From positions 1-64,000 of the forward strand of contig NZ_FOUD01000005.1 in assembly GCF_900114765.1 (NCBI RefSeq): a DNA stretch of 64,000 nucleotides, read 5' to 3'. The notes under the pieces were generated by a model that was not told where the DNA came from, ran no database searches, and worked only from the letters and a program-made list of their open reading frames with translations. The position numbers and the translations under genes are program-made. This DNA is from Halopseudomonas pachastrellae. GTDB lineage: Bacteria; Pseudomonadota; Gammaproteobacteria; Pseudomonadales; Pseudomonadaceae. Within the stretch, counting starts at the first letter, position 1. Every line of letters starts with the position of its first letter. Positions 6,399-57,010 of this stretch are shown here, piece by piece.

Positions 6399-7592
6399 AT
6401 GTCACTGCCCAGTCTGCGTCTCAAAGCCAATGCCGAACGGCGCATCCGCGCAGGGCACCTGTGGGTCTTCAGTAATGAAGTGGATACCGCGCAGACGCCG
6501 CTGACCGCCTTTGAGGCTGGCCAGCAGGCGCAGCTCGAAACCAGCAGCGGTAAGCCTCTGGGCCTGGTGTGCATCAGCCCCAACAACCTGATCTGTGCGC
6601 GCCTGTTTGGTCGCGATACCGGCCACCTGCTCGACAAGTCGCTGCTGGTGCACCGCTTCAAGGTGGCGCTGAGCCTGCGCGAGCGCCTGTTCGACAAGCC
6701 CTTCTATCGCCTGGTGTACGGCGAGTCCGACCTGTTGCCGGGCCTGGTAGTGGACCGCTTTGGCGACTACTTCGTGGTACAGATCGCCAACCCCGGCATG
6801 GAGCGTGTACGCGATGCCATCGTTGAAGCGCTGGTGCAGGTGTTCAAGCCGCAGGCGGTGCTGTTCAAGAACGACAGCGGCGCGCGCAAGCTTGAAGGGC
6901 TGGACTCCTACGTCGAGGATGCCTACGGCGTGATGCCGGAGACGGTGGCGCTGGAGGAAAACGGCGTGCGCTTTGAGGCGCCGGTACGCGAGGGCCAGAA
7001 GACTGGCTGGTTCTACGATCACCGCGCCAACCGCGCGCGCCTGGCGCCCTATGTGGCCGGCAAGCGGGTGCTCGACCTGTACAGTTACATTGGCGGCTGG
7101 GGCGTGCAGGCCGCCGCCTTTGGGGCCAGCGAGGTGATGTGTGTCGACAGCTCGGCACCGGCACTGGATTGCGTCGAGGCCAATGCCGAGCTCAACGGTG
7201 TGGCCGAGAAGATGGCCGTGGTCGAAGGCGACGTGATGGCGGCGCTGCGCGAACTCAAAGGCGCCAACGAGCGCTTTGACCTGGTGATCGCCGATCCGCC
7301 GGCGTTTATCAAAAAGCGCAAGGATATCCGCAACGGCGAAGCCGCCTACCGCCGGCTCAATGAGCAGGCCATGCGCCTGCTCAACAAGGACGGCATTCTG
7401 GTCTCTGCCTCCTGCTCCATGCACCTGGAGGAAGACCGCCTGCGCGACGCCCTGCTCGGCGCCAGCCGCCACCTGGATCGCAACCTGATCATCACCGAGC
7501 GCGGCTTCCAAGGCGCCGACCACCCGCTGCACCCGGCGATTCCGGAGACCGGGTATATCAAGGCGTTGTTTTGTAGGGTAACGCCGGCCTGA
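6399..7592 (+). CDS. rlmI: RlmI, 23S rRNA m5C1962 methyltransferase
   Basis: SAM-dependent methyltransferase of 397 residues that modifies cytosine 1962 of 23S rRNA. The ATG at 6399 has CCAGGAG upstream and gives the expected length (E. coli RlmI is 396). The N-terminal PUA domain covers roughly residues 1-80 (LKANAERRIRAGHLWVFSNEV). The Rossmann methyltransferase core shows motif I at VLDLYSYIGGWGVQAAAFGA and the catalytic-region motif IADPPAFIKKRKD. The second Cys motif appears as LVSASCSMHL. It is monocistronic and ends in the hairpin at 7593-7611. Confidence 0.93.
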   Translation: MSLPSLRLKANAERRIRAGHLWVFSNEVDTAQTPLTAFEAGQQAQLETSSGKPLGLVCISPNNLICARLFGRDTGHLLDKSLLVHRFKVALSLRERLFDKPFYRLVYGESDLLPGLVVDRFGDYFVVQIANPGMERVRDAIVEALVQVFKPQAVLFKNDSGARKLEGLDSYVEDAYGVMPETVALEENGVRFEAPVREGQKTGWFYDHRANRARLAPYVAGKRVLDLYSYIGGWGVQAAAFGASEVMCVDSSAPALDCVEANAELNGVAEKMAVVEGDVMAALRELKGANERFDLVIADPPAFIKKRKDIRNGEAAYRRLNEQAMRLLNKDGILVSASCSMHLEEDRLRDALLGASRHLDRNLIITERGFQGADHPLHPAIPETGYIKALFCRVTPA

Positions 7593-7611: not shown

Positions 7612-7612
7612 A

Positions 7613-7836
7613 GCTGCAAGCCGCAAGTTGCAAGCAAAACCCGCGTGGCTGCCAATCGCGCGGATTTTCTTGAAGTGGTGAGTGGTTGCACGGGTTTTAG
7701 AAAACACTTGACGGTTTTGCTGCCGAACTCACCCTGATTACGCTTGCAGCTTGCAGCTTGCAGCTTGCAGCTTGCAGCTTGCAGCTTGCAGCTTGCAGCT
7801 TGCAGCTTGCAGCTTGCAGCTTGCAGCTTGCAGCTT
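7613..7836. repeat. Intergenic heptamer-arm element, copy A
   Basis: The left arm at 7613-7635 holds three degenerate heptamers (GCTGCAA, GCCGCAA, GTTGCAA). The right arm at 7743-7836 holds thirteen perfect tandem copies of CTTGCAG plus CTT, the inverse complement of the left-arm unit. In the core CTTGAC at 7707-7712 is followed after 27 bases by ACGCTT at 7740-7745. The element fills the gap between convergent rlmI and the HAD gene. The heptamers open in all six frames (a 21-bp repeat encodes 7 residues), which produces spurious ORFs here. Confidence 0.9.
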
Positions 7837-40593: not shown

Positions 40594-41268
40594 ATGCTGA
40601 ACTGGAACATGATCGATACCGTCCTGCTGGATATGGACGGAACCCTGCTGGATCTGCACTTTGACAACCACTTCTGGCTGGAACACATGCCCGCCTGCTA
40701 CGCGCGGCACCACGGCCAGTCTGTCGACTGGGCCAAGGCCGAGCTGTACCCCATGATGCAGGCCATTCAGGGGCAGCTGGAGTGGTACTGTCTGGATTAC
40801 TGGACCCGTGAGCTGGGCCTGCCGATTGTCGAGCTCAAGCGCGAGATCGCCCACCTGATCAGCCTGCGGCCGGATGCCGACCTGTTTCTGCAGACACTGC
40901 AGCAGACCGGGCGCGAGGTGGTGCTGATTACCAATGCCCACCGCGACTCGCTGTCGCTCAAGCTGGAGCGGGTAGAGCTGCGCACCTGGATTCAGCGCCT
41001 GATCAGCTCCCACGACTACGGTTATCCCAAGGAAACCCAGGCGTTCTGGCATGCCCTGCAGGCGGATATGCCCTTTGACCCGGAGCGTACGCTGTTTATC
41101 GACGACAGCCTGAGCGTACTGCGCTCAGCCCGCGACTACGGCATCGCCCACCTGCTCGCCGTACGCGAACCCGACAGCCGCGGCGCACGCCGGGACACGG
41201 AGGAGTTTGAGGCGGTGGAGGACTACGCAGAGCTTGCGCTGGCAGCGAGGCTGCTACCGGGAAGCTAG
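40594..41268 (+). CDS. yrfG: YrfG-like HAD hydrolase (GMP/IMP nucleotidase)
   Basis: A 224-residue HAD hydrolase from the ATG at 40594. Motif I is VLLDMDGTLLDLHFDNHFW, motif II VLITNAHRDSLSLK, and motif III/IV YPKETQAFW... with TLFIDDSLSVLRSARDYG. E. coli YrfG acts on purine nucleotides GMP and IMP; the neighbouring nudE is shared with that genome. The C-terminal end LAARLLPGS stops inside the first heptamer of intergenic element copy B, so the last few residues are encoded by or directly abut the element. Confidence 0.88.
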   Translation: MLNWNMIDTVLLDMDGTLLDLHFDNHFWLEHMPACYARHHGQSVDWAKAELYPMMQAIQGQLEWYCLDYWTRELGLPIVELKREIAHLISLRPDADLFLQTLQQTGREVVLITNAHRDSLSLKLERVELRTWIQRLISSHDYGYPKETQAFWHALQADMPFDPERTLFIDDSLSVLRSARDYGIAHLLAVREPDSRGARRDTEEFEAVEDYAELALAARLLPGS

Positions 41269-41390
41269 AAGCTGGAAGTTGGAAGCTGGAAGTAGTTTGG
41301 GGGCTCTTGCAGCTGGTGTGCCCGGTCCAGTATTAGCTTGACACCGTTTGGAGTAGGCTCATGCTATTGACGCTTCCAGCTTCCGCTAGC
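41261..41390. repeat. Intergenic heptamer-arm element, copy B
   Basis: The left arm at 41261-41292 holds GAAGCTA, GAAGCTG, GAAGTTG, GAAGCTG and GAAG. The right arm at 41372-41390 holds CTTCCAG and CTTCCGC-TAGC, the inverse complement type. CTTGAC at 41337-41342 is followed after 27 bases by ACGCTT at 41370-41375. The element joins two convergent genes: the yrfG stop (41266-41268) lies in the left arm and the rimK stop (41386-41388) in the right arm. Confidence 0.88.
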
Positions 41391-46118: not shown

Positions 46119-46194
46119 TCCGCGATAGCTCAGTCGGTAGAGCAAATGACTGTTAATCATTGGGTCCCAGGTTCGAGTCCTGGTCGCGGAGCCA
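46119..46194 (+). tRNA. tRNA-Asn (GTT)
   Basis: Complete cloverleaf of 76 bases with CCA encoded. The acceptor stem TCCGCGA pairs with TCGCGGA; D-arm TAGCTCAGTCGGTAGAGC; anticodon GTT at 46152-46154 in loop CTGTTAA; T-arm CAGGTTCGAGTCCTG. First of three tRNAs on one transcript. Confidence 0.97.
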
Positions 46195-46207
46195 ACTTGA
46201 AATAGTA

Positions 46208-46284
46208 CGGGGTATAGCGCAGCCTGGTAGCGCGCCTGCTTTGGGAGCAGGATGTCGAGAGTTCGAATCCCTCTACCCCGACCA
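46208..46284 (+). tRNA. tRNA-Pro (TGG)
   Basis: Complete cloverleaf of 77 bases with CCA. The acceptor stem CGGGGTA pairs with TACCCCG; anticodon stem CCTGC/GCAGG with loop TTTGGGA gives anticodon TGG at 46242-46244; T-loop GTTCGAATC is standard. Lies 13 bases after tRNA-Asn. Confidence 0.97.
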
Positions 46285-46298
46285 GTTTTTTTGAGCAT

Positions 46299-46374
46299 GG
46301 GTCGTTAGCTCAGTTGGTAGAGCAGTTGGCTTTTAACCAATTGGTCGTAGGTTCGAATCCTACACGACCCACCA
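46299..46374 (+). tRNA. tRNA-Lys (TTT)
   Basis: Complete cloverleaf of 76 bases with CCA. Acceptor GGGTCGT pairs with ACGACCC; anticodon loop CTTTTAA gives TTT at 46332-46334; T-loop GTTCGAATC. Last tRNA of the cluster; a T-rich stretch (TTCTTTTTTATTT, about 46399-46411) follows. Confidence 0.97.
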
Positions 46375-46879: not shown

Positions 46880-48202
46880 TCAGTGCAGCTTCAGGCGCGG
46901 TTCAGTGGTTCGCCCGAACTGGTCGCTGAGCATCAGCATCAGCGTGCGTGGCACGCCGTACAGGGCCATCTGGTGCATGCGGTAGAGCGAGATGTAGAAC
47001 ATGCGTGCCAGACGCCCCTCCAGCATCACGTTGCCGGTCAGGTTGCCCATCAGATTCCCCACAGCGCTGAAGCTCGACAGCGAGATCAGCGAGCCGTAGT
47101 CACGGTAGCTGTATTCTTTTTCGGGTTTGCCGTCGAGCAGGTTGCGCAGGTTTTTCGCCAGCAGGCTAGCCTGCTGGTGAGCTGCTTGCGCCCGTGGCGG
47201 TACAAACTTGCCGGGCTCATCGGTAGGGCAGGCGGCGCAGTCGCCGAAGGCGTAAATGCGCTCTTCGCCGTTGACCTTCAGGGTGCGGTCGACTTCGAGC
47301 TGGTTGATGCGGTTGGTGGGCATGCCCAGGCCGGCGAGGAAGGCCGGGGCGCGAATGCCGGCTGCCCAGACTTTGAGGCTGGCGGGGATTTCCTCACCGT
47401 TGCCCAGGATCAGGCGGTCGGCCTTGACCTCTTTGACCGGCGAGCCGGTATGCAGGTGCACACCCAGGTCACGGAGGATTTCCGTTACCGGGCCACCAAT
47501 GCGCTCGGGCAGGGCCGGGAGCAGCCGTGGGCTGGCTTCGATAATGTTGATGTTGAGGTCTTCCGGGCTGATGCGGTTGAAGCCGTAGGCGCGCAGCAGC
47601 TGGGCGGCATGGTGCAGCTCGGCGGCCAGCTCGACGCCGGTGGCGCCGGCGCCAATGATGGCGACGTTGATCGGCTCACGGGCGGCGCCGCGTTCGCTGG
47701 CCTGGGCCTTCATGTACTGGTTGAGCAGATGGCGGTGGAACCGCTCTGCCTGGGCGCGGGTATCGAGGAACAGGCAGTGTTCGGCGGCGCCCGGGGTGTT
47801 GAAGTCGTTGGTGGTACTGCCGACGGCGATGACCAGGTAGTCGTAGTCGAGTTCACGCGGGGCGATCAGCTCGACGCCTTTTTCATCCTGAATGGCAGCC
47901 AGCTGAATGGTACGGCGCTCGCGGTCCAGCCCGGTCATGGCGCCCAGCTGAAAGGCAAAGTGATTCCACTTGCCCTGGGCGACGTAGTTCAGCTCGTCCT
48001 CGGTCGAGTTGAGCGAGCCGGCGGCGACTTCGTGCAGCAGCGGCTTCCAGATGTGGGTCATGTTGGCGTCGACCAGAGTGATTCTGGCCTTGCCCTTGCG
48101 GCCGAGCTTGCGGCCCAGGCGGGTAACCAGTTCCAGGCCGCCGGCGCCACCGCCGACAACGACAATGCGCGGGGGCGCGCTGGGGTTTGATGAGTCTGAC
48201 AT
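46880..48202 (-). CDS. ndh: Ndh, type II NADH:quinone dehydrogenase
   Basis: Membrane-associated flavoenzyme of 440 residues that passes electrons from NADH to quinone without proton pumping. FAD-binding motif RIVVVGGGAGGLELVTRLGRKLG lies at the N-terminus and the NADH-binding motif NVAIIGAGATGVELAAELHH near residue 178. ERIYAFGDCAACPTD is the second FAD contact. The C-terminal amphipathic part (FYISLYRMHQMALYGVPRTLMLML) anchors the protein to the membrane. The DUF3094 gene stands upstream on the same strand, as in other Pseudomonas. Confidence 0.95.
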   Translation of the reverse strand: MSDSSNPSAPPRIVVVGGGAGGLELVTRLGRKLGRKGKARITLVDANMTHIWKPLLHEVAAGSLNSTEDELNYVAQGKWNHFAFQLGAMTGLDRERRTIQLAAIQDEKGVELIAPRELDYDYLVIAVGSTTNDFNTPGAAEHCLFLDTRAQAERFHRHLLNQYMKAQASERGAAREPINVAIIGAGATGVELAAELHHAAQLLRAYGFNRISPEDLNINIIEASPRLLPALPERIGGPVTEILRDLGVHLHTGSPVKEVKADRLILGNGEEIPASLKVWAAGIRAPAFLAGLGMPTNRINQLEVDRTLKVNGEERIYAFGDCAACPTDEPGKFVPPRAQAAHQQASLLAKNLRNLLDGKPEKEYSYRDYGSLISLSSFSAVGNLMGNLTGNVMLEGRLARMFYISLYRMHQMALYGVPRTLMLMLSDQFGRTTEPRLKLH

Positions 48203-51746: not shown

Positions 51747-52300
51747 TGACCGACGAGTTGAATCAGGAAGAGCAGCCCCGTGTGCTGCTGGTGGACGATG
51801 ACCCTACCTTTACCCGCGTGATGGCGCGCGCCCTTAGCCGGCGCGGCCTGCAGGTGGATACAGCCGGTGGAGCAGAGGAGGCGATGGAGGTTGCCCGCGC
51901 CCAGCGTCCTGACTACGCCGTGCTCGATCTGAAGATGGAAGGGGATTCGGGCCTGGTATTGATGCCACGCCTGCTGGAGCTCTACCCGGACCTGCGCATC
52001 GTGATTCTGACCGGCTACTCCAGTATTGCCACGGCGGTAGAAGCCATCAAGCGTGGCGCCTGCAACTACCTGTGCAAACCGGCTGATGCCGACGATGTAT
52101 TGACTGCCCTGCTGTCCGAGCAAGCCGACCCGGAAACGCTGGTGCCCGAGCACCCGATGTCGGTTGATCGCCTGCAGTGGGAGCACATTCAACGGGTGCT
52201 CGCCGAGCACGAAGGCAACATCTCCGCCACCGCCCGCGCCCTGGGCATGCACCGGCGGACATTGCAGCGGAAGTTGCAGAAGCGGCCAGTGCGCCGCTGA
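51746..52300 (+). CDS. roxR: RoxR, response regulator (RegA/PrrA type)
   Basis: Response regulator of 184 residues; the ATG overlaps the roxS stop by one base. The receiver domain has phosphoacceptor D61 in YAVLDLKMEGDSG, with the acidic pocket LLVDDDP and the conserved Lys in YLCKPADADD. The output is a Fis-type helix-turn-helix: GNISATARALGMHRRTLQRKLQKRP, as in RegA/ActR. Works with RoxS to tune respiration to redox state. Its stop codon lies in the loop of a GC hairpin (52289-52310). Confidence 0.94.
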   Translation: MTDELNQEEQPRVLLVDDDPTFTRVMARALSRRGLQVDTAGGAEEAMEVARAQRPDYAVLDLKMEGDSGLVLMPRLLELYPDLRIVILTGYSSIATAVEAIKRGACNYLCKPADADDVLTALLSEQADPETLVPEHPMSVDRLQWEHIQRVLAEHEGNISATARALGMHRRTLQRKLQKRPVRR

Positions 52301-52310
52301 GGCGGCGCAC
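52289..52310 (+). terminator. GC hairpin enclosing the roxR stop codon
   Basis: GTGCGCCGC at 52289-52297 pairs perfectly with GCGGCGCAC at 52302-52310. The loop TGAG contains the roxR stop TGA. Heptamer element copy C begins 4 bases later. Confidence 0.7.
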
Positions 52311-52313
52311 TGG

Positions 52314-52452
52314 GCTGGAAGCTGGAGGCATGAAGCTGGAAGCAGTCCGAGTTGCCTCGGATCTTTTGCTTCTAGTTCGGCCTTGGCTTGAACGGGACTG
52401 CCGCTAATTCACACTGATTGGCTGCCAGCTTCCAGCTTCCAGCTTGCAGCTT
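52314..52452. repeat. Intergenic heptamer-arm element, copy C
   Basis: The left arm holds GCTGGAA, GCTGGAG, then GAAGCTG-GAAGC (52314-52344). The right arm holds CTGCCAG, CTTCCAG, CTTCCAG and CTTGCAG (52422-52449). The core CTTGAA at 52387-52392 is followed after 27 bases by a one-base-shorter version of the ACGCTT junction (52420). CAGTCCGAG at 52343-52351 is shared with copy D. It sits between convergent roxR and the Tim44-like gene. Confidence 0.85.
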
Positions 52453-56821: not shown

Positions 56822-56971
56822 GCTGGAAGCTGAAGGCTTGAAGCTTGAAGCAGTCCGAGGTGTTGGAGACTGCAGCTCTCAACCGGGCTTTACCTTGACG
56901 CGGTTTACGTCGAGCTCATGCTGAAGACGCTTCCAGCTTCCAGCTTCCAGCTTCCAGCTTCCAGCTTCCAG
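56822..56971. repeat. Intergenic heptamer-arm element, copy D
   Basis: The left arm holds GCTGGAA, GCTGAAG, GCTTGAA and GCTTGAA (56822-56849). The right arm holds six perfect CTTCCAG units at 56930-56971. CTTGAC at 56894-56899 is followed after 27 bases by ACGCTT at 56927-56932. CAGTCCGAG at 56851-56859 is shared with copy C. Unlike the other copies it lies between two same-strand genes, tatD and prfC, just after the prfC stop. Confidence 0.88.
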
Positions 56972-56973
56972 CT

Positions 56974-57010
56974 GAGCATCACTGCGCGGCTACGCCGCTC
57001 AGTGATGCTC
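56974..57010 (-). terminator. Hairpin enclosing the prfC stop codon
   Basis: GAGCATCACTG at 56974-56984 pairs with CAGTGATGCTC at 57000-57010; the loop itself contains GCGGC/GCCGC, making a long stem-loop. The prfC TGA stop (56999-57001) spans the loop-stem junction, so the last two His codons lie in the stem. Confidence 0.7.

Follow-up and report, generated by a model that had tools for sequence, protein, structure and literature searches.

MITEs are short, carry inverted-repeat ends, and occur in many copies at unrelated loci, with both occupied and empty sites. REP/REPIN sequences with RAYT are extragenic and palindromic and reach many copies in Pseudomonas-type genomes, while the STRR (short tandemly repeated heptamers) of cyanobacteria form heptamer arrays between genes, for which we know of no paired arms plus core. 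The nearest published case that we found is that of the intergenic heptamers GGGAATC and GGGGA(C/T)T of Xanthomonas and Nostoc, which frequently form inverted-repeat pairs (70 in Xcc), lie close to ORFs, and keep the same locations between species while their length and sequence vary (PMC4692102). The name Pseudomonas has 0 occurrences in the main text of that paper, and the openly licensed literature on Pseudomonas heptamer repeats, Stutzerimonas, and Halopseudomonas yielded nothing on the element described here.

We studied four intergenic copies (A to D) of this element in the window, i.e., the whole 64,000-nucleotide stretch of Halopseudomonas pachastrellae DNA analyzed, and their relatives elsewhere (genomes, loci, contigs, and families carry our own handles G, L, C, and f, with G000 being the own genome). 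The element is like the Xanthomonas/Nostoc repeats in its period of 7, intergenic position, inverted pairing, and proximity to ORFs, but their unit differs (G-quadruplex type) and a fixed two-box core is not described in the available portion of that source (PMC4692102). Like MITEs, it is short, with no ORF seen, has inverted-repeat ends, and lies at many unrelated loci with occupied and empty sites. Unlike them, its heptamer ends can expand and it has a strong bias toward stop codons; in the loci read, no target-site duplication was recognized by eye, the empty sites being too diverged, and no autonomous parent transposon with the same ends was noticed (the families searched were Y1_Tnp and RVT_1). 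With REP/REPIN it shares an extragenic, palindromic, and multicopy nature, but the presence of Y1_Tnp does not track it and, to our knowledge, the sequence differs. With the cyanobacterial STRR it has intergenic heptamer arrays in common. We put at about even the chance that this is a non-autonomous, MITE-like family of ca. 130 to 230 bp at gene 3' ends that would terminate transcription of its neighbors and whose core, with its promoter geometry, would provide an antisense start.

Four copies in the window

The sequence-only reading had placed the copies at 7613-7836 (A), 41261-41390 (B), 52314-52452 (C), and 56822-56971 (D), and all are present there, on the plus strand. Each can be read as a short AAGC-type left arm, a variable body, a two-box core, and a mostly uniform right heptamer array. 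As claimed, CTTGAC-N27-ACGCTT is exact in copies A, B, and D (at 7707, 41337, and 56894), and copy C has CTTGAA with a junction one base shorter. By our reading of the sequence, the base that C lacks lies beyond the second box, and all four copies space their boxes identically, with 16 bases between the hexamers. The two further shared stretches also hold: CAGTCCGAG, common to C and D, is exact in 8 of 17 aligned own-genome copies, and GCTCATGCT, common to B and D, corresponds to the core's second box.

Copy A follows the stop of a plus-strand ORF ending at 7592, with a left arm of degenerate heptamers, AGCTGCAAGCCGCAAGTTGCAAGC, at 7612 to 7635. Its body hairpin with A/T tails (7636 to 7672) has a terminator-like stem at 7641 to 7663, the one hit of a terminator scan that averaged 1.1 in shuffles and is weak alone; hairpins of group-1 copies, AAAACCCGCGCGG..CGCGGGTTTT, resemble it. 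The core (7708 to 7735) consists of TTGACG (7708 to 7713), 16 bases, and CACCCT (7730 to 7735), and the right arm, (GCTTGCA)n with 14 GCTT units, spans 7742 to 7836. The left arm of copy B (41261 to 41293) overlaps the TAG stop (41266 to 41268) of a plus-strand ORF, its core (41338 to 41365) reads TTGACA, 16 bases, and CATGCT, and its right arm, of 2 GCTT units (41372 to 41382), adjoins the 3' end of a minus-strand ORF at 41386. In copy C, the left arm (52314 to 52343) is followed by a terminator-like body hairpin (52345 to 52362; one found versus a mean of 0.4 in shuffles), a core of TTGAAC, 16 bases, and CACACT (52388 to 52415), and a right arm with GCTG first and then 4 GCTT units (52421 to 52452). 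Copy D has a left arm at 56822 to 56851, a group-2 body that begins AGTCCGAG (56852 to 56894), a core at 56895 to 56922 (TTGACG at 56895 to 56900, 16 bases, and CATGCT at 56917 to 56922), and a right arm, (GCTTCCA)n with 6 GCTT units, at 56929 to 56973. The terminator scan found none in copies B and D. Left arms were read in the sequence, with the ORF list for B and the copy alignment for C and D; the cores of A, B, and D were placed by pattern and core alignment and that of C by sequence and copy alignment, as was the body of D by copy alignment; right arms come from GCTT-run counts, with the ORF list for B and the sequence for C and D.

According to the ORF list, convergent ORFs flank copies A, B, and C, and copy D has a minus-strand ORF on either side, with the array of D lying at the 3' end of the ORF that ends at 56999. 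Next to copy D, on neither strand in particular, a hairpin at 56974 to 57010 (sequence and inverted-repeat scan) combines this ORF's 3' end with an inverted copy past its stop. GCTT runs of at least 3 units occur three times in the window, versus a mean of 0.0 in 20 mononucleotide shuffles. The proposed pairing of the arms into long hairpins gained support, since predicted folds beat dinucleotide shuffles (z of -4.3 for D, -3.5 for the first 150 nt only of A, -2.5 for B, and -5.6 for C). Searching the window with Rfam at gathering score left the element unmatched and found only three tRNAs; three consecutive tRNA genes occupy 46119 to 46371.

A conserved two-box core

Across copies, the conserved signal is TTGAC-N17-CANNCT with the array at once behind it; in full, TTGAC, 17 nearly free bases, CANNCT(GATTA), and then directly the period-7 array. 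The originally proposed CTTGAC-N27-ACGCTT is therefore real but too narrow, since the array unit varies. Among 158 distinct heptamer-array starts (from locus L020 onward, retrieved with patterns lacking TTGAC), TTGA[CAT] starts exactly 34 bases upstream in 34, while no other distance exceeds 7 (37 bases in 7, 33 bases in 4); for many of these loci the search pattern was built around CTGNNNACGCTT or CTGATTA, so that the second half of the core is not independent. A slightly narrower reversed control, [CA]AGTT, never exceeded 2 at any distance among the same starts. In 44 cores picked for TTG at -34, four of which look like chance (L007 minus, L012 minus, L102, and L104), A-11 is found in 42, T-7 in 43, C-8 in 39, C-12 in 33, and G-6 in 38, and the bases between the two boxes vary; shared descent and repeated orthologues inflate these counts as well as those of core direction, location, arm pairing, and array uniformity given below, and the patterns that selected several of the locus sets already contained part of the core or GCTT. 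The second box of family f47 is AT-rich (AATAAT in three cores, CAGAAT in one), and by eye the copies of this family look closer to the sigma-70 consensus. Six of the eight Stutzerimonas kirkiae copies have TTGAC 37, not 34, bases from the array, while L084 has TCGAC and L088 TTGGC in its place.

From its sequence, the most likely role of the core would be that of a promoter, because of the spacing, the kept A and T, the AT-rich f47 box, and the array at the expected start site. The geometry is that of TTGAC and yAnnCT boxes with 16 bp between hexamers; the A and T of the second box occupy the two key -10 positions, and the C preceding its final T resembles RpoS-type -10 boxes. A transcript from such a promoter would start where the array does. 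A consensus sigma-70 scan (-35 TTGACA, spacer of 16 to 18, -10 TATAAT, at least 9/12 matches) detected no promoter in copies A, B, C, and D. The conserved C-12 and C-8 count against a plain sigma-70 promoter, which leaves both unexplained, and the 37-base distance in six S. kirkiae copies counts against the promoter reading. An RpoH promoter was rejected, as CTTGAC..CCCCAT fits a few copies (L007 and L010) but not most second boxes. RNA structure in the core was likewise discarded (RNAalifold on 39 cores gave -0.76 kcal/mol with no compensatory pair), and a TTGACGG..CCGTCA stem apparent in some copies did not hold.

The main rival to termination plus an antisense start is a protein-binding role, in which an unknown recombinase or transposase, or else a protein of the nucleoid or of termination, would recognize the two boxes of the core; the arms would then be terminal inverted repeats, and repeated nicking or slippage at the core's edge would lengthen the array. 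Such a site is possible, though on balance unlikely. It would fit two conserved boxes with fixed spacing and free bases between them, the array starting at the edge of the core, the dispersed copies, the body inverted in G011 versus G002, and the absence of a consensus promoter from the four window copies, but the A at -11, the T at -7, and the AT-rich second box of f47 fit a promoter, and among the families tested (RT and Y1) no associated enzyme gene was found.

Position at gene ends and complementarity of the arms

The bias toward gene 3' ends, left as a check by the sequence-only reading, was confirmed. When a 3' end faces the site, its stop codon lies at a median of 14 nt (n = 144, including some negative distances from wrong ORF ends, with gene calls made by a crude GC3 heuristic). 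Among 128 heptamer sites in the fetched loci of several genera, with orthologues repeated, 19 lay within a called ORF and one had no called neighbor; the 108 classified sites comprise 40 convergent, 63 same-strand, and 5 divergent junctions, and the 60 junctions of the window 13, 34, and 13, respectively. In 48 of 62 cases, the core points toward the end of a gene on the opposite strand.

At some sites (52288 to 52313 and 56974 to 57010 in the window; L195, L153, and L109), the last 9 to 12 bases of the gene end recur as an inverted copy past the stop, giving a hairpin around it. A general inversion of coding-sequence ends past the stop was set aside as weak, with inverted repeats of at least 9 at 6 of 98 gene ends with arms versus 4 of 305 without, and means near those of shuffles.

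The two arms match each other even at a variable position, the fifth base. The base before AAGC on the left complements the base after GCTT on the right in 34 of 41 core elements (ca. 20 expected from the margins; one row shows the L012 site a second time, and descent is shared within groups) and in 58 of 75 other pairs outside core elements. Predicted binding is -34.5 kcal/mol for own arms versus -31.4 kcal/mol for swapped ones, with 0 of 50 shuffles as good. Arrays are uniform in 61 of 65 cases beside a core (median, 8 units) versus 45 of 141 elsewhere (median, 4 units); the proportions are 15/16 and 23/79 for arrays of 4 to 6 units, and a non-decisive 4/6 and 24/55 for loci retrieved with the degenerate pattern or as orthologues. 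Strict conservation of GCTT is ruled out by the GTTTGCC type in G001 and the CCTTCAG/GCCTCCA types in G008. A short hairpin, GGGGGCGGCCATCCGCCTT, shared by L005, L011, L064, and L076, interrupts the right array, and in L064 the unit beyond it is the same variant as in the array.

Terminator-like hairpins (GC stem plus T run) were found in 14 of 69 bodies, versus a mean of 1.5 in mononucleotide shuffles; that most bodies, those of copies B and D among them, show none counts against a role in termination. In the MITE-like reading with a promoter core, the arms may pair into a long hairpin beside gene ends and the element would help to end transcription of the neighboring genes, while from the core a short RNA would be transcribed across the array, in most cases antisense to the facing gene's 3' end; this transcription, together with slippage, might hold the array long and uniform. 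Far more speculatively, and in our opinion improbably, (GCUUNNN)n repeat RNAs from such 3'-end promoter-plus-array cassettes in several Pseudomonadales families could pair with AAGC-type 3' UTR arms in cis and in trans, as a genome-wide network of 3'-end control with a specificity that drifts as arrays homogenize.

We also judge it improbable that the copies are plain bidirectional terminator hairpins between gene ends, with stems turned repetitive and an incidental core. The gene-end location, the 14/69 terminator-like bodies, and the arms of G010 and G018 around a plain terminator without core agree with it, but the retained two-box core and the dispersal of the whole unit are left unexplained.

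Dispersal across genomes and turnover at orthologous loci

In the 3.93-Mb own genome, CTTGAC-N27-ACGCTT has four matches, the fourth on contig C18, and the reversed pattern 0. With one more array unit, the strict pattern occurs in 6 of the 37 genus genomes and, among 398 family genomes, only in those same 6. A looser right-core pattern reached 17 of 37 genus genomes, with 18 matches in the own genome and 0 for its reverse, while a narrow 3-mismatch pattern gave 0 in the own genome. The sequence-only reading had reserved the name of independent microsatellites for the case in which heptamers recur and the core does not; these searches gave the opposite result. A collection scan retrieved 21 stretches, which come from Halopseudomonas and related Pseudomonas names, S. 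kirkiae (8), S. stutzeri (one), and some metagenome bins; the one Clostridiales match among them looks like chance.

Heptamers alone are only partly specific, because the degenerate array GCTT(N3GCTT)3, present in 44 of 194 order genomes, has a reversed control found, by our count, in 17 of 194, and in G552 control matches outnumber those of the array. TTGAC-N29-GCTT plus two more units was found in 8 of 390 order genomes versus 1 with the reversed pattern: 8 copies in G000, 8 in G439 and 1 in G593 (family f43), 2 each in G493 and G520 (family f47), and single, possibly chance, matches in G596, G745, and G075. Judging by these sequences, related cores occur outside the genus, in S. kirkiae and in two families of the order (f43 and f47). 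At L092 and L096 of G439, a second heptamer family, AAAGTTN/NAACTTT, lies inside or beside the GCTT family.

Within the own genome, 17 copies align from the left arm through the first array units, three with AAAACCCGCG-type bodies (A, L004, and L050) and 14 with AGTCCGAG or looser ones. Copies at the unrelated loci L051 and L052 share 149 of 166 bp (90%), 60 of these in the array; without the array, 89 of 106 are identical (84%). Against other G000 loci, the L052 copy gives identities of 90, 82, 81, 79, and 78%, part of each match being array, and similar bodies lie at different loci of S. kirkiae (L073, L088, and L090) and G010 (L007, L012, L015, and L019). As in MITEs, similar short copies are found at unrelated loci, and there are terminal inverted repeats, with GCTGGA...TCCAGC ends recognized by eye in addition to the complementarity of the arms.

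Of the claim that these are copies of one mobile or non-autonomous unit, the single dispersed unit stands, as the 17 copies align, but the word mobile has no known enzyme behind it; mobility is suggested by dispersal and by occupied versus empty spacers. The suggestion of a RAYT next to related arms failed. Y1_Tnp is present in 32 of 37 genus genomes, including many without looser right-core matches, and was not detected in G017 and G023 (the latter 83% complete), which carry copies, so that it was rejected as the mobilizer. RVT_1 reverse transcriptase (16 of 37 genus genomes) does not track the element either and was rejected, with 0 matches in the copy-bearing G001, G008, G013, G017, and G023. 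Phage searches with copy D and the L052 copy, and a plasmid search with the whole L052 copy, gave no match. Three other loci had peculiarities of their own: the array portion of the L052 query gives chained and overlapping matches of 100% identity over >500 bp in G016 (contig C56, ca. 47400 to 47922); a reverse-transcriptase domain lies ca. 1 kb from a GTAGCTT array in G010 (contig C34, 209510 to 210130 and 211113); and L017 (G010, contig C26) has a repeated unit of ca. 100 bp, itself with heptamers.

The spacer holding the L052 copy could be fetched from 20 of 36 relatives. A rule of TTG, 19 bases, [CT]A..CT, and a period-7 run at +34 matched exactly six of them (G001, G002, G008, G017, G023, and G024), and none of the other 14 fits TTG-N19-[CT]A..CT. 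The spacer measures 198 bases in G000 and 176 to 244 in the six, versus 17 to 48 bases with no element in G007, G014, G015, G016, G020, G022, G029, and G032; it has other sequence in G018 (45 bases), G028 (82), and G033 (133), heptamer traces in G021 (53), and heptamer arms without this core in G010 (131) and G013 (245). In the seven species, the core is retained while its surroundings turn over: boxes and spacing are kept, and the arrays vary, as do the bases that separate the boxes. The first box is TTGAC in G000, G001, G002, and G008, TTGGC in G023, TTGGT in G017, and TTGCA in G024, and the arrays are of GCTTCCA (G000), GTTTGCC (G001), CCTCCAG (G008), GCCTCCA (G024), two GCTTGCA units (G017 and G023), or N's (G002).

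The spacers of copies C and D have other bodies between similar arms in relatives (5 of 20 gave no result for C). Those of G010 and G018 have arms around a plain terminator without core, and some, e.g., in G036, are without heptamers. Bodies can apparently invert, because one group-1 body of the copy C spacer (L112 and L110) lies opposite to the flanking gene in G011 versus G002, with 91% identity over 120 bp. What the flanks indicate to be a single site in three species (L011, L064, and L065) has arrays of GCA, GCC, and GCG types.

Very little probability remains for the view that replication slippage produced the heptamer microsatellites independently and that their cores are alike by chance. 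Heptameric repeats are reportedly over-represented in bacteria (PMC4692102), heptamer arrays without core are common, and the units of the arrays are freely replaced (GCA, GCC, and GCG; GTTTGCC and GCCTCCA types), and the microsatellite reading may hold for core-less arrays. The core-bearing copies are not independent microsatellites, given the fixed core spacing, the bodies common to unrelated loci, and the complementarity of the arms. LINE/SINE pairs have microsatellite tails, and a retroposed element of that kind, its 3' tail prone to slippage, as suggested by the conserved 3' core and uniform array tail behind a variable body, is just as hard to credit, with RVT_1 undetected in the five copy-bearing genomes named above and no conserved RNA structure in the core.

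Under the favored reading of a dispersed, MITE-like element with a promoter-like core, scattered "heptamer microsatellites" of the Pseudomonadales would become a defined class of elements with a conserved core. They would let one follow in nature, at a single locus, how arrays turn over next to a fixed core from species to species, and would make testable the idea of dedicated antisense starts and hairpins at gene 3' ends in these bacteria.
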